DNA from: Thermoanaerobaculia bacterium | GTDB lineage: Bacteria > Acidobacteriota > Thermoanaerobaculia > Multivoradales > J023 | DNA: 64,000 nucleotides | Reading direction: 5' to 3' | NCBI GenBank assembly: GCA_028066595.1 | Contig: JALCBJ010000031.1 | Location: forward strand, 1-64,000 | Shown: in pieces, positions 19,312-30,049 of the stretch | How the letters are laid out: the number at the start of each line of letters is the position of its first letter | How positions within the stretch are numbered: position 1 is the stretch's first letter | Position numbers and translations under genes: made by a program | Notes under the pieces: model-generated | What the model was told of the DNA's origin: nothing | The model's database searches: none | What the model saw: only the letters and a program-made list of their open reading frames with translations

Positions 19312-20363
19312 CTAGGCCACAGGGACCCGCTCCACTAGGTCGTCTGGTGGCCGTCGGCACCTCGATCTGCCCCGCGTCCGCAGGCGTTCGACGTCCGCGC
19401 CGGTGGATCGGAGCGTGGTGTCGTCGATGTTGCCGCCGGTCAACAGCAGGCCGACTTCGGTGTGCTCCGCGAGAGCCGGCGGCCGGGCCAGCACCGCGGC
19501 CACTGCAGCGGCTCCTGCCCCTTCGACCGTCTCGCCGAGCTCGTCGGCCAAGAAGCGAATCGCCGATGCAAGCTGCCCTTCGTCGACGGTCACGATCGCA
19601 TCGACCTGGTCGCGCACGATGCGCAGCGGCAGGGCGCCGACTTCTCGGACGGCAATGCCGTCGGCCAGGGTCTTGTCCGCGGGCAGCCGAACCGGTCGGC
19701 CCGCTCCAACGGCCCGGCGGAGGGAGGGAAGACAGGCGGGTTCCACGGCGACCAATCGTGGCCGCTGAGTGTGCGGGACAGTGGCCAGAGCGATGACGGC
19801 GCCAGCGAGGAGTCCACCGCCGCCACAGGGCACCACCAGAGCCTCGAGATGCGGCCGCTGGGCAAGGAACTCACGTACCAACGTTCCTTGCCCTTCGATC
19901 ACGCGGGCATGGTCGAAGGGCGGCAGAAAGAGGTGTCCCTCAGACCGCGCCCATCTACGCGCCAGGTCGTAGGTCTCGTCGAAGTCGGTATCGCCGACGC
20001 GGAGCACCGCGCCGTGCTCCGCGATCCGCCGGCGTTTGACGTCGGGGGTCGGGTGCGGCACGAATACAGTGGCTTCGAGACCCAGGACGCCTGCCGCGAA
20101 GGCGACGCCCTGGCCGAAGTTACCTGCGGACGCTGTGACGACGGATCGATGGCAGCGGTGCCGTGGATCTGTGAGCGCCGCGAGAGCCCCTCGGACTTTG
20201 AACGCGCCGGTGACCTGACGATGTTCGGCTTTGAGCCGGCAGCGCAGGCCGGCGGCGCGGTCGAGTGCGGGCGACGACAACACGGGTGTGATGTCGAGCC
20301 ACGGCGCGATCCGCGCCGCGGCCGCTATCAGACCTTGGGCAGTAGGAGAATTCCCGGGTCCAT
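19312..20363 (-). CDS. ilvA: Threonine dehydratase (IlvA-like), apparent 5' frameshift
   Basis: Makes 2-oxobutanoate from threonine for isoleucine synthesis, a PLP enzyme. The body matches fold-type II dehydratases: AEHRQVTGAFKVRGA contains the PLP lysine, with SAGNFGQGVAFAA and the phosphate loop VVPCGGGGLLAG. There is no C-terminal ACT regulatory domain, so it is the short form. An AAGGAG site points to an ATG at 20363, but that frame (MDPGILLLPKV) meets TGA after 11 codons. The homologous frame continues at once as LIAAAARIAPWLDITPVL, one base out of register at 20331. Either one base is missing (mutation or assembly error), or the short ORF is a leader and the enzyme starts at an unusual codon; a GTG at 20283 would lose conserved residues. 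It is the last gene of the ilv operon. Confidence 0.8.
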
Positions 20364-20436: not shown

Positions 20437-21498
20437 TCAGACGTCGGCCGTGACAGGTCGAGCGGGGCGGGCTCCGTCGAGGAAGGCGATTCTCTGGCGT
20501 AGACGGGCACCGACCTGCTCGATGGGATGCTGCTGCTCGGCAGCGCGCCGGCGTTCGAAATCGGGCCGGCCACGATCGTCCTCCGCGATCCAGCGCCGGG
20601 CGTAGGATCCGTCGCGGATGTCCGTCAGCATCTCGGTCATCTTCCGCCGGGTTTCGTCGTCCACCAGGCGTGCCCCGCCCTCGTAGCCGCCGTGTTCGGC
20701 GGTATCCGACACGCTGTGCCACATCTCGCCCAGGCCGCCGCGGTACATCAGGTCGACGATCAGCTTCAGCTCGTGGAGACACTCGAAATATGCCACCTCG
20801 GGCTGGTAGCCCGCGGATACCAGTACCTCGAAGGCTGACCGCACGAGGCCGGTGACGCCGCCGCACAGCACGGCCTGCTCACCGAAGAGGTCCGTTTCCG
20901 TCTCCTCCGCGAAGGTCGTTTCCAGCACACCGGCTCGGGTTGCTCCGATGCCGTGGGCGTAGGCCAGGGCCGTGGCATGAGCGCAGCCCGTAGCGTCTTG
21001 CTCGACGGCGATCAGAGCCGGCGCGCCCGCACCCTGTTGGTAGAGCTCGCGCACCCGGTGGCCGGGCGACTTTGGGGCCACCATGACGACGTCGATGTCG
21101 GTCGGCAGCTCCAGGAGCTCGTATCGAACGTTGAACCCGTGGGCGAACAGCAGCGTGTCGCCGGGCTCGAGGTGTGGCGCGATGCTGTCGCGAAACACCG
21201 CAGCTTGAGACGTGTCAGGAACCAGCAACGAGATCAGACGTGCCGAAGCAGCCGCCTCGGCCACCGAGGCGACGCGCAGTCCGGCGTCGGCGGCCTGCTG
21301 CCAGCCGGCACTGTCCGGACGTAGACCGACGACCACGTCGATGCCACTGTCTTTCAGGTTGAGAGCGTGGGCATGACCCTGGCTGCCATAGCCGATGATG
21401 GCGACCGTGGTGCCGGACAGGTGGCTCGGATCGGCATCGTCTTCGTAGAACAGACGAGCCGTTGGCTGATCCGGTGAGTGGGGAGTGGGGGTAGTCAT
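20437..21498 (-). CDS. ilvC: Ketol-acid reductoisomerase, class I
   Basis: A 353-residue enzyme that isomerises and reduces acetolactate or acetohydroxybutyrate with NADPH and Mg2+, the second common step of valine, leucine and isoleucine synthesis. The N-terminal Rossmann domain shows GYGSQGHAHALNLKDSG with VVGLRPDS after it. The C-terminal domain carries EETETDLFGEQAVLCGGV (metal-binding Asp and Glu) and YFECLHELKLIVDLMYRGG. Length fits the short class I form. AAGGAGA lies just before the ATG. It lies 84 bp downstream of ilvN, a gap holding a small GGCCGG/CCGGCC hairpin (21567-21582), and 73 bp before the dehydratase. Confidence 0.95.
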   Translation of the reverse strand: MTTPTPHSPDQPTARLFYEDDADPSHLSGTTVAIIGYGSQGHAHALNLKDSGIDVVVGLRPDSAGWQQAADAGLRVASVAEAAASARLISLLVPDTSQAAVFRDSIAPHLEPGDTLLFAHGFNVRYELLELPTDIDVVMVAPKSPGHRVRELYQQGAGAPALIAVEQDATGCAHATALAYAHGIGATRAGVLETTFAEETETDLFGEQAVLCGGVTGLVRSAFEVLVSAGYQPEVAYFECLHELKLIVDLMYRGGLGEMWHSVSDTAEHGGYEGGARLVDDETRRKMTEMLTDIRDGSYARRWIAEDDRGRPDFERRRAAEQQHPIEQVGARLRQRIAFLDGARPARPVTADV

Positions 21499-21582: not shown

Positions 21583-22167
21583 TCAGTGGGCTTGCTTCGA
21601 ATCGGTGCGCAGGCGGTCTTCCAGCCAAGTGGACGGTGGTGACGAATAGGCCAGGTGACGTCCGGATCGAGCCAGCGCCACGGGCTCCGAGCGCACCATC
21701 TCGACGATGCCGAAGGGACGTAGCACGGCTAGAAGACCGTCGATCTTGTCGACGTTGCCGGTGGCTTCGACGATGACGGTGTCGGCCGCCACGTCGACGA
21801 TGCGGGCGCGGAAGACCTCGCAGACCTGGGCCACCTGAGGCCGCATCGCGGCGTCGGCCGTGACCTTGACCAGGGCCAGCTGCCGGCCGACGCGGGGAAC
21901 GTCGCTCAGGTCGTCGGCCGAGAGCACGTAGAGCAGCCGGCCGAGCTCGCGGACCAACCTCTTGGCCTCGCGCTGCGGCCCGTCGAGAGTGACGGTGACC
22001 CGCGCCACGTGGGGTGTGTCCGTGGGCCCGATGCTGAGACTGCGGACCTGAAAGGACCGGCGTCGCAACAGGGCGACGGTCTGAGGAAGCAAGTCGGGCC
22101 GATCTTCGGCGAGGGCGCTGATGACCAGCGGTTGCGACGTGCTGCGGGGCTCGGGGATTTCTGGCAT
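21583..22167 (-). CDS. ilvN: Acetolactate synthase small (regulatory) subunit
   Basis: A 194-residue subunit that activates the catalytic subunit and confers feedback inhibition by valine. The N-terminal ACT domain runs from PLVISALAEDRPDLLPQTVALL to VTVTLDGPQREAKRLVREL, and a second alpha/beta domain follows (RQLALVKVTADAAMRPQVAQV, VIVEATGNVDKIDGLLAVLRPFGIVEMVRSEPVALAR). Typical length for the ilvH/ilvN family is about 160-190. It starts 9 bp after the catalytic subunit stop, so translation is probably coupled. The family's usual N-G-V allosteric loop is less clear here than in enteric proteins, so the strength of valine control cannot be judged. Confidence 0.93.
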   Translation of the reverse strand: MPEIPEPRSTSQPLVISALAEDRPDLLPQTVALLRRRSFQVRSLSIGPTDTPHVARVTVTLDGPQREAKRLVRELGRLLYVLSADDLSDVPRVGRQLALVKVTADAAMRPQVAQVCEVFRARIVDVAADTVIVEATGNVDKIDGLLAVLRPFGIVEMVRSEPVALARSGRHLAYSSPPSTWLEDRLRTDSKQAH

Positions 22168-22176
22168 GGCGTGGCC

Positions 22177-23931
22177 TCAGACCCGCACGGGTTCGGGATT
22201 GGGACGGGGGTCGGGATGGGGACGGCGGATCATGGCGTCCAGATCGGCGCCAGCGGGAACCATGGGGTAGACCGCATCGTGCTGTTCGACGACGAACTCG
22301 GCCAGGATCGGGCCGCCGCGATGGGCGCGTAGCCGATCGATCGCCGGCCCGAGGTCTTCGCGCCGCGAGACGCGCAGCGCGGGGATGCCGTACGCCTCGG
22401 CCAGACGGCAGAAGTCGGGACTCAGAACCGGTGTGGCCAGGTACCGGCGGTCGTAGAAGAACTCTTGCCACTGGCGGACCATGCCGAGATAGCCGTTGTT
22501 GATCACCGTCACTTTCAGCTCGATGCCTTCTTGCACCGCGGTCGCCAGCTCGGCCTGGGTCATCTGAAATCCACCGTCACCGGCGATGGCCCAAACCTCT
22601 TCGTCGGGACGGGCCATCTTGACGCCGAGCGCCGCCGGCAAGGCAAAGCCCATGGTGCCCATGCCGCCGGACGTGACCAACGTGCCGGGCCGGCTGTGCG
22701 GGTAGTACTGGGCCTCCCACATCTGATGCTGGCCGACGTCGGTGACGTTGATCACGTCGCCGCCCGTATGCCGGAACAGCGCGTCGATGACCTCGGCGGC
22801 GAGCAGAGAGTCGTCGATCTGGGGCCGACGCAGGACGTCGCGCTCGTCCGCGTCTCGAGTCCAGGATGCGATCTCGTCGCGCCATTCGCCGGCGGCGTCG
22901 GCTGCCGCGTCGTTTAGGGGCGCAAGGTGTTCGAGCAGCGACGAGAGAACGGGCCGGAGGTCGCCGACGATGCCGACGTCGACCGCCACGTTTTTACCGA
23001 TCTCGGCGGCATCGATGTCGATGTGTAGCTTGCGCGCCGATGGCGCGTAGGTGGCCAGATTGCCCGTCACCCGATCGTCGAAACGCATGCCGAAGGCGAG
23101 GAGCAGGTCCGCCTCTTGGATGGCGCGGTTGGCGGGTGCGGTGCCGTGCATGCCCATCATGCCGAGGCACAGAGGATGGGCTTCGGGCAGACAGCCCTTG
23201 CCCAACAGGGTCAGAGCCACCGGAATGGACCTACGTTCGGCGAAGGCGAGCAACTCGTCCGATGCGCCGGAAAGCAAGATGCCATGACCCGCCAGAATCA
23301 CCGGACGCCGCGCCGACTCGATCAGATCCAAGGCGGCTTTCAGGGTGTCCGGGTCGAGCTCGGCCTGGGGACTTCCCGGGAGCCGCACGGGCGTATCGGG
23401 CCATGGTGCCTCGGTGCACGCGTTCTGGACGTCCTTGGGTATGTCCACCAGGACCGGTCCAGGTCGGCCGGACACGGCAAGGGTGAGGGCCTCGTCGAGG
23501 ACCAGGGGAAGGTCGTCGACCTCGCGGACGAGATAGGCATGTTTCGTAACGGGCGCCGCCACTCCGGTGGTGTCGCACTCCTGGAACGCGTCACCGCCCA
23601 TCGCGGTCGTGGGAACCTGACCGGTGATGCACACCACCGGGGAGGAATCCATCATCGCGGTTCCGAGTCCGGTCACGAGATTGGTGGCTCCCGGGCCGCT
23701 GGTCGCCAGAACCACGCCGGGTCGGCCCGAGGCTCGGGCGTAGCCGTCGGCCATGTGGGTGGCGCCCTGTTCGTGCCGACACAGGACGTGGTGAATTCCG
23801 GGGTGTCGATCGAGCGCATCGTAGGTGGGAAGGATGGCGCCGCCTGGATAGCCGAAGACCCGATCCACTCCGTGGCGGGACAGGCCTTCCCAAACGATGT
23901 CGGCGCCGCTGCGTCGTGCTTGTCTGGACAT
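22177..23931 (-). CDS. ilvB: Acetolactate synthase large (catalytic) subunit
   Basis: A 584-residue thiamine diphosphate and FAD enzyme that condenses pyruvate with pyruvate or 2-oxobutanoate. The N-terminal domain shows VFGYPGGAILPTYDAL and the cofactor-proton Glu in CRHEQGATHMADGYARAS, then TSGPGATNLVTG. The central FAD-binding domain has FGMRFDDRVTGNL. The C-terminal ThDP motif begins GDGGFQMTQAEL and ends about 30 residues later in NNGYLGMVRQWQ. GGAGG precedes the ATG. It lies 15 bp after ilvE and 9 bp before ilvN. Confidence 0.95.
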   Translation of the reverse strand: MSRQARRSGADIVWEGLSRHGVDRVFGYPGGAILPTYDALDRHPGIHHVLCRHEQGATHMADGYARASGRPGVVLATSGPGATNLVTGLGTAMMDSSPVVCITGQVPTTAMGGDAFQECDTTGVAAPVTKHAYLVREVDDLPLVLDEALTLAVSGRPGPVLVDIPKDVQNACTEAPWPDTPVRLPGSPQAELDPDTLKAALDLIESARRPVILAGHGILLSGASDELLAFAERRSIPVALTLLGKGCLPEAHPLCLGMMGMHGTAPANRAIQEADLLLAFGMRFDDRVTGNLATYAPSARKLHIDIDAAEIGKNVAVDVGIVGDLRPVLSSLLEHLAPLNDAAADAAGEWRDEIASWTRDADERDVLRRPQIDDSLLAAEVIDALFRHTGGDVINVTDVGQHQMWEAQYYPHSRPGTLVTSGGMGTMGFALPAALGVKMARPDEEVWAIAGDGGFQMTQAELATAVQEGIELKVTVINNGYLGMVRQWQEFFYDRRYLATPVLSPDFCRLAEAYGIPALRVSRREDLGPAIDRLRAHRGGPILAEFVVEQHDAVYPMVPAGADLDAMIRRPHPDPRPNPEPVRV

Positions 23932-23946
23932 GGGACCTCCTGGGGG

Positions 23947-24957
23947 TTACGCCGCGCCGGCCAAGGAGCGGACGGTCTCACGGGACGTGGGTTCCGGAGA
24001 GCTGTCGTCTCTCCGAACCGAGGGTGAAGTCGCCGACGGTGCGGTCGGCGTCAACCAGCCATAGCGATCTGCGGTCTCGCCACGTACGAGGCGAAAGAAC
24101 TCTTCCTGCAGTCGAGCCGTTATCGGTCCGCGGGCGCCGTCGCCGACGGGATGGCGGTCCACGGAGCGCACGGGTGTGATCTCGGCGGCCGTGCCGGTGA
24201 GGAAGATCTCGTCGGCCACGTAGAGGTGATCGCGCACGAGGTCGGCTTCTCGGACCTCGAGATCCAGGTCGCGGGCGATACGGATGACGCTGTCGCGCGT
24301 GATGCCGGCGAGGATCGAGCTCGCGGCGGTGGGCGTCCAGAGGACGCCGTCGCGTACGAGGAACAGGTTCTCGCCGCTGCCCTCGCTCAGCCTGCCCCAG
24401 GGATCGAGGAGGATGGCTTCGTCGAAACCATCGTCGTGCACTTCCGCGACCGCCAGCTGGTTGTTGACGTACTGCCCGCCGATCTTCGCCATGGGCGCCA
24501 TGGTGGCCGAAGGAAATCGGCGCCAAGAGCTCACCCGGGCGTCGATTCCTCGTTCCAGGGCGCCATCGCCCAAGTAACTTCCCCAGGCCAGGCCCAAGAC
24601 GATGATTCGGACAGGGTTCCGACGGCCGTCGACTCCCAAAGATCCACCATCGCGAAAGGCGATCGGGCGGAGGTAGCAGGAGCCGTGTTCGTTGCGTCGT
24701 ACGAGCTCGCAACAGGCCGCGTGCAGTCGGTCCGCCGGATACTCGGACAGATCCATGTGCATCAGCCGTGCCGAGTCGTGGAGGCGGCGTAGATGATCTT
24801 CGAGGCGAAAGATCGCCGCACCTTCGGAGCGTTCGTAGGCCCGGATGCCCTCGAAGACCGACGAGCCGTAGTGCAGGGCGTGGGCTGAGGGGTGGACCGC
24901 GGCGTGCTCCCAGGGGATGACCTCGCCGTTGTCGTAGATCCAGGAACCATGATTCAT
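23947..24957 (-). CDS. ilvE: Branched-chain amino acid aminotransferase
   Basis: A 336-residue fold-type IV PLP aminotransferase, the last step of Val, Leu and Ile synthesis. The start at 24957 begins MNHGSWIYDNGEVIPWEHAA, as the family does, with AAGGA upstream; the frame is open for 93 further codons but without similarity. Visible landmarks are HALHYGSSVFEGIRAY, the PLP lysine in MAKIGGQYVNN, LSEGSGENLFLVRDG and the FLTGTAAEITPV phosphate-binding loop. It starts 28 bp after the ilvD stop. The C-terminal 30 residues after YGWL are Ser/Thr-rich and beyond the usual family end, so they are a lineage-specific tail. Confidence 0.93.
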   Translation of the reverse strand: MNHGSWIYDNGEVIPWEHAAVHPSAHALHYGSSVFEGIRAYERSEGAAIFRLEDHLRRLHDSARLMHMDLSEYPADRLHAACCELVRRNEHGSCYLRPIAFRDGGSLGVDGRRNPVRIIVLGLAWGSYLGDGALERGIDARVSSWRRFPSATMAPMAKIGGQYVNNQLAVAEVHDDGFDEAILLDPWGRLSEGSGENLFLVRDGVLWTPTAASSILAGITRDSVIRIARDLDLEVREADLVRDHLYVADEIFLTGTAAEITPVRSVDRHPVGDGARGPITARLQEEFFRLVRGETADRYGWLTPTAPSATSPSVRRDDSSPEPTSRETVRSLAGAA

Positions 24958-24985: not shown

Positions 24986-26650
24986 TCAGACGTCCGCCAG
25001 AACCGCACCGGTGGCGGCGCTGGTGGCGAAGCGGGCGTAGCGGCGAAGCCAAGGGCTGGTGGTGCGCGGAGAGAAGGCAGGAGTGGCGGCTCGGCGACGA
25101 TCGAGCTCTTCGGCCGAAACGAGGAGGTCGATTCGTCGCTGGTCGACGTCGATGGATACGGTGTCGCCGTCGCGGACCAGGCCGATGGGGCCACCTGCGG
25201 CGGCCTCGGGGCTGACGTGGCCGACGCTGAGACCACGACTGGCTCCGGAGAAGCGGCCGTCGGTCACGAGGGCCACCTGCTCTCCCAGGCCGACGCCCTG
25301 GAGCTGAGCCGTGGGTGCCAGCATCTCGGGCATTCCCGGACCGCCCCGCGGACCCTCGTAGCGCAGGATCACGACCTCGCCTGGCTGGATGTCGCGGGAG
25401 AGGATCGCCTTCGACGCATCGGTCTCTCCCTCGAATACCCTGGCCGGGCCTTCGAGACGGCGGAGTCCTCCGACGCCGGCGGTCTTGATCACCGCGCCCT
25501 CCGGCGCCAGGGAGCCGAAGAGGACCGCCAGACCGCCGGTCGCGGAGTGTGGAGTGTCGTGAGGACGGATCACCTCGGGATCGCGCACCCGATGACCCTC
25601 CAAGGAATCACGCAGGCTCTGGCCCGCGACCGTCGGCCGGTCCAGGTGCAGCAAGTCCAGGGTTCTGAGCTCGTCGAGCACTGCAGGTACGCCGCCGGCA
25701 CGGTGGAGATCCTCCATGTGCCATGGACCTGAAGGGCTCAGCTTGGCGAGTAGCGGAACCCTTCGTGCCAGCGCATCGAGCCGCTCGAGGGAGTAGTCGA
25801 TCTCGGCCTCGCGAGCCGCCGCGAGCAAGTGGAGAATCGTGTTCGTGCTGCCACCCAACGCAAGATCGAGGGCGAAGGCATCGTCCATCGCCTCCACGGT
25901 GACGATCCGGCGGGCCGTGAGGTCGCTCGAGACCAGGTCGAGGATCCTGTGCCCGGCTGCGCGGTACAGGGCGTCCCTTTCGGGACTCTCGGCCAGGGCC
26001 GTGCCGTTCCAGGGCAAGGCCAGCCCCAGCGCCTCGAGCAAGCAGTTCATGCTGTTGGCGGTGAACAGACCGGCACAAGATCCGCAGCTGGGACAGCCAT
26101 GGTCCTCGAGCACCTGCAGCTCTTCGGCATCGATGCGACCCGCGCGGAACGCTCCGACGCCCTCGAACACACTCACCAGGTCGACCTTTCGACCGTCCGG
26201 CGTCCGCCCTGCGGCCATGGGTCCACCGGTGACGAACAGCGTCGGCACATCGAGTCGCACGGCGGCCATCAACATGCCCGGGACGATCTTGTCGCAGTTG
26301 GGAATGCAGATCATGCCGTCGAAAGCGTGAGCCGCCACCATGGTCTCGACGCCGTCGGCGATCAGCTCGCGACTGGGCAGGGAGTACCTCATTCCGAGAT
26401 GGCCCATGGCGATACCGTCGTCGACGCCCAAGGTGTGGAATTCGAAGGGAACCCCTCCGGCCTCGCGGACTGCGGCTTTGACCTTGGCGCCGACACTCTG
26501 AAGGTGGGAGTGGCCCGGAATGATGTCGACATGGCTGTTGCAGATGGCGATGAAGGGCTTCCTCATGTCGCCGTCGCGCACGCCCGTAGCTTTGAGGAGG
26601 GCTCGATGGGGAGCTCGATCAAACCCTTTCTTGATGCGATCGGATCTCAT
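24986..26650 (-). CDS. ilvD: Dihydroxy-acid dehydratase
   Basis: A 554-residue Fe-S dehydratase, third common step of branched-chain synthesis. The start at 26650 opens [23 protein letters not shown], the canonical family N-terminus; the frame is open upstream through the leader region but that part is not protein-like. Cluster ligands are seen in [26 protein letters not shown] and [18 protein letters not shown], with PGG-type and catalytic motifs [22 protein letters not shown] near the C-terminus. The full length and intact Cys set indicate an active enzyme. It is the first structural gene of the operon and lies about 50 bp downstream of the attenuator at 26703-26731, which should govern its transcription. 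Confidence 0.95.
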
Positions 26651-26702: not shown

Positions 26703-26731
26703 AATAAAAAACCCCCGGTTTCCCGGGGGTT
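26703..26731 (-). terminator. Attenuator terminator T2 upstream of ilvD
   Basis: On the minus strand AACCCCCGG-GAAA-CCGGGGGTT is a 9-bp GC-rich hairpin followed by a T-run, a complete intrinsic terminator placed before, not after, the operon. Its ascending arm (26723-26731) is also perfectly complementary to 26757-26765, the last codons and stop of leader 2. That gives the mutually exclusive antiterminator expected for attenuation. Confidence 0.88.
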
Positions 26732-26754
26732 GCGAACTATCGATGTGGTGTGCG

Positions 26755-26967
26755 CTAACCCCCGGTCGTTTGGCTCAAAATGACCAGTAGTACCAGAACG
26801 ATCAGGACGACGACCGACAGGTCGACCCGCCACCGGATCTCGTCGGTGGAGAGGATCAGCACGCGGGACGGGCTCGAGCCAGAGACCGGGCGAAACGCCG
26901 GCTCAGGCGAGGTCTGCGCCATGCGAGACAGCGGATCCTGGGTGGCGGGTGGGTGCGGGCGATTCAT
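26755..26967 (-). CDS. ilv leader peptide 2 (attenuator)
   Basis: A 70-codon ORF starting at the ATG 11 bases after a consensus-like promoter (26979-27007) and ending in a run of branched-chain codons, [16 protein letters not shown], then SQTTGG and TAG. An internal ATG at codon 16 is an alternative start. The closing codons ACC GGG GGT TAG form the sequence that pairs with the terminator's first arm. A ribosome stalled in the Val/Leu/Ile run would leave this free, so the antiterminator forms and ilvD is transcribed; a ribosome reaching the stop would cover it, so terminator T2 forms. This is the logic of the enteric ilv and leu attenuators, though those leaders are shorter. It could instead be a small one-helix membrane protein, but the fit to the terminator argues against that. 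Confidence 0.8.
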
Positions 26968-26978
26968 GATGGCCGGGG

Positions 26979-27007
26979 ATTATCGGGAACGTATTTTGGG
27001 ATGTCAA
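26979..27007 (-). promoter_or_regulatory. Strong sigma70-type promoter P2 for the ilv operon
   Basis: On the minus strand TTGACA (27002-27007, a perfect -35) is followed after exactly 17 bases by GATAAT (26979-26984, 5 of 6). The leader 2 ATG is 11 bases beyond the -10, so the transcript would begin within a few bases of the start codon (leaderless or nearly so). The surroundings are AT-rich compared with the window. Confidence 0.85.
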
Positions 27008-27139
27008 CAGTTTTCTCGAAATATTTTCCACTTTCCGAGATCTCGTGTAAGAGAAATATTTTTCTGCGCACACCTCTCCCGTGCACGCCATGACTCGGGT
27101 CCGCAGCTTGCTCGGAACGACGAATGTTCCGTCGTCAAA

Positions 27140-27172
27140 AAGAAAAAGCCCCCGGAGTGTTTCCGGGGGCTT
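27140..27172 (-). terminator. Attenuator-like terminator T1
   Basis: On the minus strand AAGCCCCCGGA-AACAC-TCCGGGGGCTT is followed by TTTCTTTTT, a strong intrinsic terminator. The ascending arm also pairs over 7 bases with GGGGGCT at 27204-27210, the last codons and stop of leader 1. It is the same design as T2, about 430 bp upstream, and no gene lies between T1 and P2. Confidence 0.85.
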
Positions 27173-27201
27173 CTTCGTGGCGTCTATTTCGTGTGCCTCG
27201 C

Positions 27202-27369
27202 TCAGCCCCCTCCTTCTCGCAGAAGGACGATGATGCATACGATGACTAGAACGACCAGGGAAGCTACCCGAGCTTGCGCAGAGCGGACGCCGACCGTCTC
27301 GGCGCTGGGCAGCTGCCGGCTGACGGAGCGGACGTGGGTCCGGTGCGAGGACGGGTAGAAATTCGGCAT
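27202..27369 (-). CDS. ilv leader peptide 1 (upstream attenuator)
   Basis: A 55-codon ORF from the ATG at 27369, 10 bases beyond the -10 of promoter P1, ending in a branched-chain run LVVLVIVCIIVLL followed by REGGG and TGA. A GGG GGC TGA ending supplies the segment complementary to terminator T1. Outside the hydrophobic run it shares no clear sequence with leader 2, but the architecture (promoter, near-leaderless ATG, long polar N-terminal part, Val/Leu/Ile run, Gly-Gly stop, terminator) is the same. The frame is open upstream to 27408 but that start would overlap the promoter. It is either a second in-line attenuator for ilvD or a relic of duplication. Confidence 0.72.
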   Translation of the reverse strand: MPNFYPSSHRTHVRSVSRQLPSAETVGVRSAQARVASLVVLVIVCIIVLLREGGG

Positions 27370-27379
27370 GTGACCGCGG

Positions 27380-27408
27380 AGTATAGATACAGACGGCGAG
27401 GCGCGCAA
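27380..27408 (-). promoter_or_regulatory. Promoter P1 upstream of leader 1
   Basis: Minus-strand TTGCGC (27403-27408) and TATACT (27380-27385, 5 of 6) are separated by 17 bases, with the leader 1 ATG 10 bases further on. The -35 is weak (3 of 6). Spacing and position match P2. Confidence 0.6.
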
Positions 27409-27612: not shown

Positions 27613-28020
27613 GAGTCGCTAGTGGTCACTCGGAGCGTCGGCTGCACCAGATTTGGTGCAGCTTTGAGGTCTGAAACAGTATGGAATGACTGGGTCTGGA
27701 CGGCACCCGCAAGATACGACGCTACGGCGACGACATTCGGTGGCGCGCCATTCGGAGAGTGGCTCGGCTGGGTACTGCCAAACGTAGACTCCGACGGAGA
27801 TGGGATAATCGATGCGTGGGAGTCGATCCTTGGAACGGGACCAACCGACGCAGATTCCGACAACGATGGCTGCACTGACGGCGAGGAACTCCTAGGCTAT
27901 GTCAACCCCAGTGAATGGCAGCCCTCAGATCCGCTCGATTCTTTCTGCCCGCTCACACACATCTTCTCGGATGGCTTCGAATCAGGAAACACTGGCGCCT
28001 GGAGCAGTACCGTTCCGTAA
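27610..28020 (+). pseudogene. 3' fragment of an exported protein with thrombospondin type 3-like repeats
   Basis: The recognisable coding part starts around 27745 and reads GEWLGWVLPNVDSDGDGI, then DADSDNDGCTDGEE, which are Asp-rich calcium-binding type 3 repeats. It ends NPSEWQPSDPLDSFCPL plus the tail HIFSDGFESGNTGAWS and stop. An in-frame ATG exists at 27610, but the first 45 residues are not protein-like and no signal peptide or ribosome site is present. I read it as the surviving 3' end of a larger secreted protein cut by rearrangement near the IS3 remnant. The same tail is repeated as a smaller fragment at 29233-29346. Confidence 0.6.
27642..27661. repeat. 8-bp inverted repeat
   Basis: CTGCACCA-GATT-TGGTGCAG is a perfect hairpin next to the IS3 remnant and inside the degraded 5' part of the adjacent gene fragment. 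It could be an insertion hotspot, an old terminator or chance. Confidence 0.4.
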
Positions 28021-28033
28021 CCTGGCGGACTGG

Positions 28034-29185
28034 ATGCAAACTTGCCTGGTAGCAGTCGTTGTGCTGTATGCAACGGCTGCTCACGCAGCCACATTCGTAG
28101 TCGATCGCTACGACGACGACAACGGAAGCTGCACAGTAGGCGACTGCACGCTCCGAGAGGCATTGCTCGCGGCAGAGGCGACGCCTGAGATCGATACGGT
28201 CATGCTGCCTCCAGGGCAACACACGCTTTCGATTCCAGAAACCACACCGCCGAGCCTCTTCGGTGGTGACCTGGAAATTGTCGACTTCGATGTCGACGTC
28301 ACCGCACCGGAGGGAGCGACGGTCGACGCCCAACGAACCGACCGTGTCTTCAGATTCGTGAGCTCCAACTCCCGCTTGGAGAACCTGGAAATCACTGGCG
28401 GGTTCACGCCCGACGACATCGGCGGCGGAGTCTATGTCGTATCGAGCGACGTCGAACTCTCGAATCTCTGGATACATGACAACGAGGCCGGGATCGGGGG
28501 CGGAATCGCCTTTGAAATCGGAACGGTCCTGCTGTCCAACTCGGCGGTCACCGACAACGAATCACTGAACCATGCTGGTGGCATCTACCAGTTCGGAGTG
28601 ACTAACATCGCAGAAGCACACCTCGAAGTACGGAATACCACCATCAGTGGGAACGTGGCGCGCACTGCCGGAGGGGCCACGGCCGCTTTTGGTGCGAGCT
28701 TCCTGGTGATGGAGTACACAACCGTTGCCAACAACACGAATCGTTCCGGTGACCGCACTATGTTCGGCTTTCTCTTCAACCCCCGAGTTGAGGTGCTCTA
28801 TTCGATTGTTGAGGGCACCTGCATCGCGGGAATAGAGGCGAGTTGCATCTATCTGACAAGTACAGTCGACGATGTGCCCGTATCCGATCTCGGATTGGAG
28901 CCGCTTGCCTTGAACGGTGGCTTTTCACCCACCCATCGGCTTCAGGCATCGAGCCCTGCGTTGGACGTCGTCCCCGTTGGCGCCACATGCCCACCGAGTG
29001 ATCAAAGAGGCTTCGTGAGACCCGTCGATGGTGACGGTGACGACGTGGCGACGTGCGACGCTGGTGCTTTCGAGCTGCTGCCTTCTGAGACACCTGTTGC
29101 CGTACCGGCCCTGTCGCCGCATGGTCTTGTTGTCTTGATCGTGTTGTTCATGGCAGCGGCGGTCCGGAGGGTTTCCCTCGGGTAA
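28034..29185 (+). CDS. Exported CSLREA-domain protein with IPTL-CTERM-like end
   Basis: About 383 residues. The start at 28034 gives an immediate signal peptide (MQTCLVAVVVLYATAAHA); earlier in-frame starts fall inside the preceding fragment. The mature N-terminus ATFVVDRYDDDNGSC plus DCTLREALLAA is the CSLREA signature, then a right-handed beta-helix (LENLEITGGFTPDDIGGG, LSNLWIHDNEAGIGGG, VRNTTISGNVARTAGG). It finishes with VPALSPHG, a hydrophobic helix and AAVRR, an IPTL-CTERM-like sorting end in which the usual Trp is His. It probably goes to the cell surface or outer membrane. It is copy 1 of a 1326-bp tandem duplication. Confidence 0.75.
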   Translation: MQTCLVAVVVLYATAAHAATFVVDRYDDDNGSCTVGDCTLREALLAAEATPEIDTVMLPPGQHTLSIPETTPPSLFGGDLEIVDFDVDVTAPEGATVDAQRTDRVFRFVSSNSRLENLEITGGFTPDDIGGGVYVVSSDVELSNLWIHDNEAGIGGGIAFEIGTVLLSNSAVTDNESLNHAGGIYQFGVTNIAEAHLEVRNTTISGNVARTAGGATAAFGASFLVMEYTTVANNTNRSGDRTMFGFLFNPRVEVLYSIVEGTCIAGIEASCIYLTSTVDDVPVSDLGLEPLALNGGFSPTHRLQASSPALDVVPVGATCPPSDQRGFVRPVDGDGDDVATCDAGAFELLPSETPVAVPALSPHGLVVLIVLFMAAAVRRVSLG

Positions 29186-29232: not shown

Positions 29233-29346
29233 CCCAGCGAATGGCAGCCCTCAGATCCGCTCGATGCTTTCTGCCCGCTCACGCTCATCTTCTTGAACGG
29301 CTTCGAATCCGGTGACACGAACGCCTGGAGCAGCACCGTTCCGTAG
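29233..29346 (+). pseudogene. Duplicated C-terminal tail fragment (copy 2)
   Basis: The frame PSEWQPSDPLDAFCPLTL, then IFLNGFESGDTNAWSSTVP and TAG, repeats the last 37 residues of the fragment ending at 28020. It has no start codon and no upstream domain, and exists only because the tandem duplication copied it together with the CSLREA gene. Confidence 0.7.
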
Positions 29347-29359
29347 TCCGGCGACCTGG

Positions 29360-30049
29360 ATGCGAAACTGCCTGGTGGCAGTCGCTGCACTCACCGCAAC
29401 GGCTGCCCACTCGGCAACCTTCGTAATCGATCGCTACGACGACGACAACGGAAGTTGCACAGTAGGCGACTGCACGCTTCGGGAGGCGCTACTCGCTGCG
29501 GAAACGACGCCCGAAGCAGACACGATCGTTCTGTCGGAGGGGCGGCACACGCTCTCGATTCCGGAAACCACACCGCCAAGCCTGCTTGGCGGTGACCTGG
29601 AGATCTTCGATTTCGATGTCGACATCACTGCTCCGAACGGAGCGACGGTCGATGCCCAAGGAAACAACCGTGTCTTCAGATTCGTGAACTCCAACTCCCG
29701 CATGGAGAACCTGGAAATAACCGGCGGGTTCACGCCTGACGACCTCGGCGGCGGTATCTATTCCGACACAAGCGACGTCGAGCTTTCGAGTCTCTGGGTG
29801 CATGACAATGTGGCGGGAATCGGAGGCGGAATTGCCATCCTATTCGGCAGCGTTCTGCTGACCGACTCCGCGGTCAGCGACAACGAATCGTTGAATGAGG
29901 CTGGTGGCATCTACCAATTTGGGGTCAACATATTCGTTTCGCCCTCCCGCCTTGACGTGCGCAACTCAACGATTAGTGGCAACGTGGCGCGCACCGCCGG
30001 CGGCGCCTTGGTGAATCGCCCCGGGTTTCCCGGAGACCCAAACACTTGA
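29360..30049 (+). CDS. Truncated CSLREA-domain protein (copy 2)
   Basis: About 229 residues from the ATG at 29360, with a signal peptide (MRNCLVAVAALTATAAHS) followed by ATFVIDRYDDDNGSC and DCTLREALLAA as in copy 1, and the first half of the beta-helix up to STISGNVARTAGGA. The reading frame then runs into foreign sequence (LVNRPGFPGDPNT) and stops, where copy 1 continues for another 150 residues to its sorting end. The junction coincides with a probable IS terminus at 30012. The product, if made, would be exported but not anchored. It is likely a decaying duplicate. Confidence 0.6.
   Translation: MRNCLVAVAALTATAAHSATFVIDRYDDDNGSCTVGDCTLREALLAAETTPEADTIVLSEGRHTLSIPETTPPSLLGGDLEIFDFDVDITAPNGATVDAQGNNRVFRFVNSNSRMENLEITGGFTPDDLGGGIYSDTSDVELSSLWVHDNVAGIGGGIAILFGSVLLTDSAVSDNESLNEAGGIYQFGVNIFVSPSRLDVRNSTISGNVARTAGGALVNRPGFPGDPNT

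Follow-up and report, generated by a model that had tools for sequence, protein, structure and literature searches.

Ribosome-mediated attenuators control the ilvGMEDA and leuABCD operons of enteric bacteria. Attenuation of this type has also been described for the ilv genes of Staphylococcus (PMC5794164) and for ilvB in Corynebacterium and Streptomyces; in Actinobacteria, V/L/I leader ORFs overlap terminators upstream of ilvB (PMC1262725). Leader-peptide attenuators can also occur in tandem. Two of them, responding to different signals, precede the mgtCBR operon of Salmonella, an arrangement that its authors, in 2012, called a singular example (PMC3641672). The two ORFs, mgtM and mgtP, share one transcript and read ATP and proline (PMC3641672). 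Leaderless leader peptides are known for ilvL, leuL, and trpL of S. lividans (PMC8079986), and ilvBNC of C. glutamicum has been discussed as leaderless (PMC11857589). Serial RNA gates acting on one operon are also found among tandem riboswitches (PMC12452182) and T-boxes.

We analysed a 64-kb window (the whole stretch of DNA under study) containing a complete ilvD-E-B-N-C-A operon on the minus strand. Upstream of the operon, the sequence and ORFs between positions 27408 and 26700 resolve into two consecutive units, each comprising a promoter, a leader ORF, and a terminator (Table 1). This matches the original prediction, made from the DNA alone, of two leader-peptide attenuators in series before the ilv operon. 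Having considered conserved runs, pairing, and the tandem itself, all of which support it, we also find this to be the best reading. From sequence and modelling, we put at roughly 85% the probability that each unit is a ribosome-mediated transcription attenuator, a known kind of mechanism, and that the two are arranged in series.

Table 1. The two upstream units and the genes of the ilv operon, in window coordinates
Feature	Coordinates	Strand	Details
P1	27380..27408	-	-35 TTGCGC (27408-27403), 17-nt spacer, -10 TATACT (27385-27380)
Leader ORF 1	27202..27369	-	55 codons; ATG 27369; V/L/I run ~27258-27220; stop codon 27204-27202; ends ...SLVVLVIVCIIVLLREGGG, then stop
Unit 1 segment 1:2 hairpin and segment 2	27204..27226	-	CCUUCU/AGAAGG (27226-27212); GGGGGCU (27210-27204)
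Terminator 1 (segments 3:4)	27142..27176	-	15-pair stem, then U-run; z -5.05
P2	26979..27007	-	TTGACA (27007-27002), 17-nt spacer, GATAAT ending 26979; 11/12 consensus
Leader ORF 2	26755..26967	-	70 codons; ATG 26967; V/L/I run near 3' end (~26814-26776); stop codon 26757-26755
Unit 2 segments 1 and 2	26757..26787	-	CUGGUC (26787-26782); partner GACCGG (26767-26762); segment 2 CCGGGGGUU (26765-26757)
Terminator 2	26710..26731	-	Segment 3 AACCCCCGG / segment 4 CCGGGGGUU; 9-pair, U-run
ilvD	24986..26650	-	Dihydroxyacid dehydratase, first structural gene; Pfam PF00920, 437.9 bits
ilvE	23947..24957	-	Branched-chain aminotransferase; ORF, named from sequence
ilvB	22177..23931	-	Acetolactate synthase large subunit; named from sequence
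ilvN	21583..22167	-	Acetolactate synthase small subunit; named from sequence
ilvC	20437..21498	-	Ketol-acid reductoisomerase; named from sequence
ilvA	19312..20283	-	Threonine dehydratase; named from sequence

The locus resembles known ilv and leu attenuators in having V/L/I-rich leader ORFs, a terminator before the first gene, a competing antiterminator, and a cognate operon. It differs in the length of its leaders, in the placement of the run at their very end, in an antiterminator arm that sits on the stop codon, and in having not one unit but two in succession, each behind a promoter of its own. As in mgtCBR, two leader ORFs, each in its own attenuator, lie before one operon. Unlike in mgtCBR, the V/L/I runs of the two units are near-identical in content, and a separate promoter is predicted for each unit. 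The actinobacterial leaderless leaders similarly have a start codon at, or next to, the RNA 5' end (here predicted), with hairpins or a terminator behind. However, those leaders occur singly and have 12-29 residues, whereas the leaders described here, from another lineage and with predicted starts, have 22-75 codons. In contrast to tandem riboswitches and T-boxes, the sensor here would be a translating ribosome. The novelty originally claimed is thus reduced, because tandem attenuators (mgtCBR) and leaderless leaders (Actinobacteria) were already described. We found no same-signal serial pair, with a promoter each, before a branched-chain operon in the open-access literature, where absence is weak evidence as subscription papers are mostly uncovered. 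What is new is the conserved succession of two sensors for the same amino acids, each under a promoter of its own.

P2 is the sole promoter-like match in the 2-kb region. P1 matches the consensus at 8/12 positions, with 3/6 in the -35 element. Hence, while two sigma70-like promoters had been proposed, P2 fits this description and P1, being weak by consensus, is no good sigma70 match. The leader ATGs are 10 nt (unit 1) and 11 nt (unit 2) past the -10 elements, and both leaders have the lengths and terminal V/L/I runs first reported. Written at greater length, the C-terminal end of leader 1 is ...LVVLVIVCIIVLLREGGG. Among the last 22 codons of the two leaders, 13 and 14 specify V/L/I. Segment 2 covers the last codons and stop in both units, and an intrinsic terminator is present between leader and first structural gene. 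Terminator 2 is ~60 nt ahead of ilvD, the ATG of which (26650) follows unit 2 directly, as predicted. Folding of both window units shows a 1:2 hairpin inside the leader ORF, a feature that is inconsistent across units. Note that the two units are not copies of one another; their best local alignment is the terminator. This argues against an assembly artefact.

We searched the 64-kb window for ORFs with at least 7 V/L/I residues in 10 near their end, followed by a terminator. This detector returned two matches, which are the two units, and none in the window when other residue classes were used. Similarly, the signature GGGGG/CCCCC/GGGGG, written GGGGGNT...ANCCCCC...GGGGGNTTTT, matches the 7.5-Mb genome exactly twice, at the same two units. 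A reversed control pattern has no match in the 7.5 Mb. The signature is specific rather than sensitive, since the exact pattern misses both units of a congener (G001) and most of those in another genus of the family (G005). Outside the order, class- and phylum-wide searches gave isolated matches only (G106, G126, G318). For T-boxes and riboswitches, no Rfam cis-regulatory model reached its gathering score here; below threshold, weak Thr_leader and His_leader matches were seen, only on unit 1. When the whole region was used as query in a DNA similarity search, relatives matched only near ilvD and at the terminators, so we located units by architecture instead. No Trp-run leader with a terminator was found upstream of 13 trpE loci.

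The stop region of each leader can pair with the terminator. The original prediction gave 7 bp in unit 1 (GGGGGCU/AGCCCCC) and 9 bp in unit 2 (CCGGGGGUU/AACCCCCGG). Both pairings are present, and in RNAduplex they grow to 12 pairs in unit 1 (p 0.026 against shuffles) and 14 pairs in unit 2 (p <0.001). We compared the duplex between the stop region (-24 to +12) and the terminator 5' arm with composition shuffles for 24 units. The segment 2:3 duplex had p<=0.03 in 20 of these, including seven with p<0.001, and was not significant in the ilv units of G007 and G015 or the leu units of G005 and G026. The combined Fisher p of ~5e-28 is inflated, because related units are not independent. The ilv units of G003 and G006 have very different pairings (GGGCCGUUUUC/GAAAACGGCCC versus GUCGUCUUC/GAAGACGGC), and these include a compensatory U-A to C-G double change. 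Between units 1 and 2 of the window, one position is C-G against U-A, alike in segments 2, 3, and 4. The V/L/I run and the pairing of stop region with terminator, the conservation of which had been proposed as a test, are kept in relatives even where the sequence differs.

We modelled co-transcriptional folding using RNA that ends before arm 4 and a blocked ribosome footprint. With ribosomes on the V/L/I codons, arm 3 was sequestered at 0.99 (unit 1) and 1.00 (unit 2). With the ribosome at the stop codon, the values were 0.13 and 0.15. The contrast had the same direction in 23 of 23 testable units. Because blocking more RNA by itself lowers pairing, we ran a spacer-shuffle control; contrasts as large as the 0.86 and 0.85 of window units 1 and 2 arose in 0 and 2.7% of the shuffled spacers. 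Against these shuffles, the contrast was not significant for the ilv units of G003 and G006, unit A of G005, or the leu unit of G000, the window's genome. If no ribosome is present, arm 3 is sequestered before arm 4 exists (0.97 in unit 1 and 1.00 in unit 2), and equilibrium favours the terminator. In equilibrium calculations with the whole hairpin, unit 2 flips, such that 3:4 pairing is 1.00 for a ribosome at the stop and 2:3 pairing is 0.99 for a ribosome at ATT -8. The terminator of unit 1 wins at every ribosome position. The unit 1 switch would therefore have to be kinetic. Attenuators are generally held to work kinetically. By computation, antiterminator 2:3 and terminator 3:4 are predicted to be mutually exclusive, with ribosome position setting the outcome.

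These calculations suggest how each unit may operate. RNA polymerase would start at P1 or P2, and a ribosome would begin almost at the RNA 5' end. With an ample supply of charged Val-, Leu-, and Ile-tRNA, the ribosome should reach the stop codon and cover segment 2, so that 3:4 pairs and ends transcription. A shortage of any one of these charged tRNAs would stall the ribosome in the V/L/I run; segment 2 would then pair with segment 3, and polymerase would continue, no terminator having formed.

According to the model of Elf and Ehrenberg, attenuation gains sharpness from a large number of regulatory codons and from certain synonyms; the authors warn that rarity by itself is an oversimplified criterion (PMC1183508). 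We counted a synonym as minor if its share in nine window genes was <15%. Such synonyms account for 10 of the 27 V/L/I codons in the two window runs, where 4.1 are expected, and for 41 codons against 15 expected among the eight units listed. The V/L/I content of the two window units is nearly equal, so the units do not divide the amino acids between them.

Upstream regions of ilvD in relatives, which had been put forward as a check, show the tandem kept in the congener G001 and in a second genus, G005. The ilvD of the congener is 73% identical to that of the window, and two units of diverged sequence are found in the same order (L004/L111). TTGACA is present in both G001 units, unit 1 having TTGACA-18-CATAAT at the position matching P1. 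Leader 1 of G001 ends GVVVCLVLVLITGIGGF and leader 2 ends LVVLVPVLLSVLVVVNVVIIELIGSGA. In G005, a pair ending GVVLLVSILPNMGVSF (first) and RVVVATLVILLVIPSQPPGS (second) lies downstream of ilvE at the end of contig C347 (L110). A further unit, ending VQVVVVVLILSMGGF, is at the start of contig C35 (L112), before ilvD-ilvB-ilvN-ilvC. The two contigs are unjoined, with the contig break inside the terminator of the second unit; if they adjoin, G005 perhaps has three units in series. Leader C-termini are G[GV][GSF] in first units, and SQxxG[GS] in unit 2 of G000 and unit B of G005. This weakly suggests that the order of first and second unit is ancestral, the weakness being that terminator palindromes confound DNA alignments.

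Elsewhere in the order, the other ilv and leu operons examined carry single units. Thus, the mechanism appears to extend across the order and the doubling to be local. A lone unit is found before the ilv operons of G003, G006, G007, and G015, and before the leuA operons of G000, G001, G003, G005, G006, G010, G013, G015, G020, and G026. In genus g7, 20 genomes have a signature match, and ilvE-ilvB is there preceded by one V/L/I leader, such as MTRPAILLLLVLVLVLVTQGAN. The leuA leaders are Leu-rich, and the ilv leaders of the same order have mixed V/L/I; codon content hence follows the pathway. Separately, the window's own genome contains a second branched-chain operon (ilvE paralogue and leuA; L157, C105:1-2500) with a single Leu-rich leader attenuator. 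In 24 of 40 genomes of the order there is no ilvD match; this suggests either that branched-chain auxotrophy is widespread or that a different dehydratase is used. At L172 (G068 C1:3780900-3785500), ilvE is preceded by two similar attenuator-like terminator regions, which are separated by 1.6 kb and flank an unrelated ORF, and the V/L/I run looks decayed in both (LLLPVPVLAG and LLLPIPVPVLAG). At L139 and L140 (G032 and G011, family f6), signature matches are accompanied by the conserved end of a short ORF, LSSSYLSL(A/V)IARGIDV, before the terminator.

Transcription usually starts 6-8 nt after a -10 element. For 14 of the 24 units, a promoter scoring at least 8/12 has an in-frame ATG 8-11 nt beyond its -10. 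These leaders are thus predicted to be leaderless, with 5' UTRs of ~1-5 nt. By comparison, 9/12 is reached by a single one of the window's 1270 ATGs (a match consistent with unit 2), and 8/12 by <1%. Leaderless starts are not universal, since the distance from -10 to ATG is 83 nt in unit 2 of G001 and 29 nt in unit B of G005. In the P1 transcript of the window, the leader 2 ATG has no Shine-Dalgarno-like sequence in front, so leader 2 may stay untranslated there, and the outputs of P1 and P2 would then behave differently.

The simplest reading of the doubling is serial gating with two promoters. Unit 1 would feed unit 2, so that P2 transcripts pass one gate and P1 transcripts pass two, both reading the same signal. 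Output from P2 would be proportional to read-through of terminator 2, and output from P1 to the product of read-through at both terminators. Most likely, the operon would be shut off more tightly under amino acid abundance, and scarcity would bring an additional, steeper contribution. More tentatively, and with rather less confidence, the locus might be viewed as a conserved array of self-contained cassettes, two here and perhaps three in G005, each combining promoter and attenuator, that all read branched-chain aminoacyl-tRNA and work as a logic element. To graded P2 output it would add P1 output that is released only once starvation deepens, in place of two copies of one switch. If the leaders are leaderless, efficient translation would occur only on the transcript of a leader's own promoter, and P1 read-through would meet the unit 2 leader untranslated.

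We think it probable that both units are functional gates on ilvD. The alternative that only unit 2 works as an attenuator, unit 1 being a relic or spare with a weak promoter contributing little, is unlikely. It draws on the poor consensus match of P1, on the very stable equilibrium fold of terminator 1, and on single-unit ilv operons being the rule elsewhere in the order. Yet unit 1 retains its start spacing, run, segment 2, and terminator, and G001 and G005 have kept a first unit with a strong promoter despite wide sequence divergence. Less probable still, terminated unit 1 RNA might act in trans, or P1 read-through might mainly interfere with P2, without a second gate. Segments 2, 3, and 4 of both units do have G5/C5 cores, making cross-pairing possible, and P1 transcripts do cross P2; however, shared cores are expected from a common terminator type.

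We considered two further readings. The V/L/I runs are about long enough to span a membrane, and the ORFs have no known-domain match, as would suit small single-span membrane proteins followed by ordinary terminators. We consider this very improbable, given that conservation is limited to the run adjoining the stop codon, that minor synonyms exceed expectation, that pairing of the stop region with the terminator arm recurs from unit to unit, and that residue content tracks the operon (Leu for leuA). Least credible is that terminator 1 only ends an upstream transcript, its pairing with the ORF being coincidental. While intergenic terminators are common, the ORF list has no minus-strand gene directly upstream of unit 1, the neighbour (27899-29185) being on the opposite strand; an ORF upstream in G001 is divergent too, and a promoter lies 10 nt before leader 1. 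Both the membrane-protein and the upstream-terminator readings were rejected on the evidence against each. As a separate observation, 27899-29185 and 29312-30049, on the plus strand and divergent from the ilv operon, encode two adjacent, similar proteins with a common motif, DRYDDDNGSCTVGDCTLREALLAAE.

Two attenuators in series, as favoured here, would extend leader-peptide attenuation to a bacterial order in which the examined ilv and leu operons mostly carry attenuators, with predicted leaderless starts. They would also provide a natural case of same-signal serial attenuators, in which one can test directly whether gating in series makes a biosynthetic operon respond more sharply. Beyond the order, two consecutive V/L/I-rich leader ORFs with hairpins were seen upstream of ilvD relatives in Anaerolineae (Chloroflexi), at L026 (5613-5960) and L028 (1000-1340). 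These ilvD relatives are 61-68% identical, and there is no obvious promoter between the two leaders of either locus. The duplex test gave p 0.003 for unit 1 of L026, p 0.002 for unit 2 of L028, and p 0.025 for unit 2 of L026, which has a poor U-run. It was negative for unit 1 of L028 (p 0.61), so these tandems are a lead only. The gene order at L026, ilvD-ilvB-ilvN-ilvC, is that of G005, and a shared origin by transfer is hence possible.
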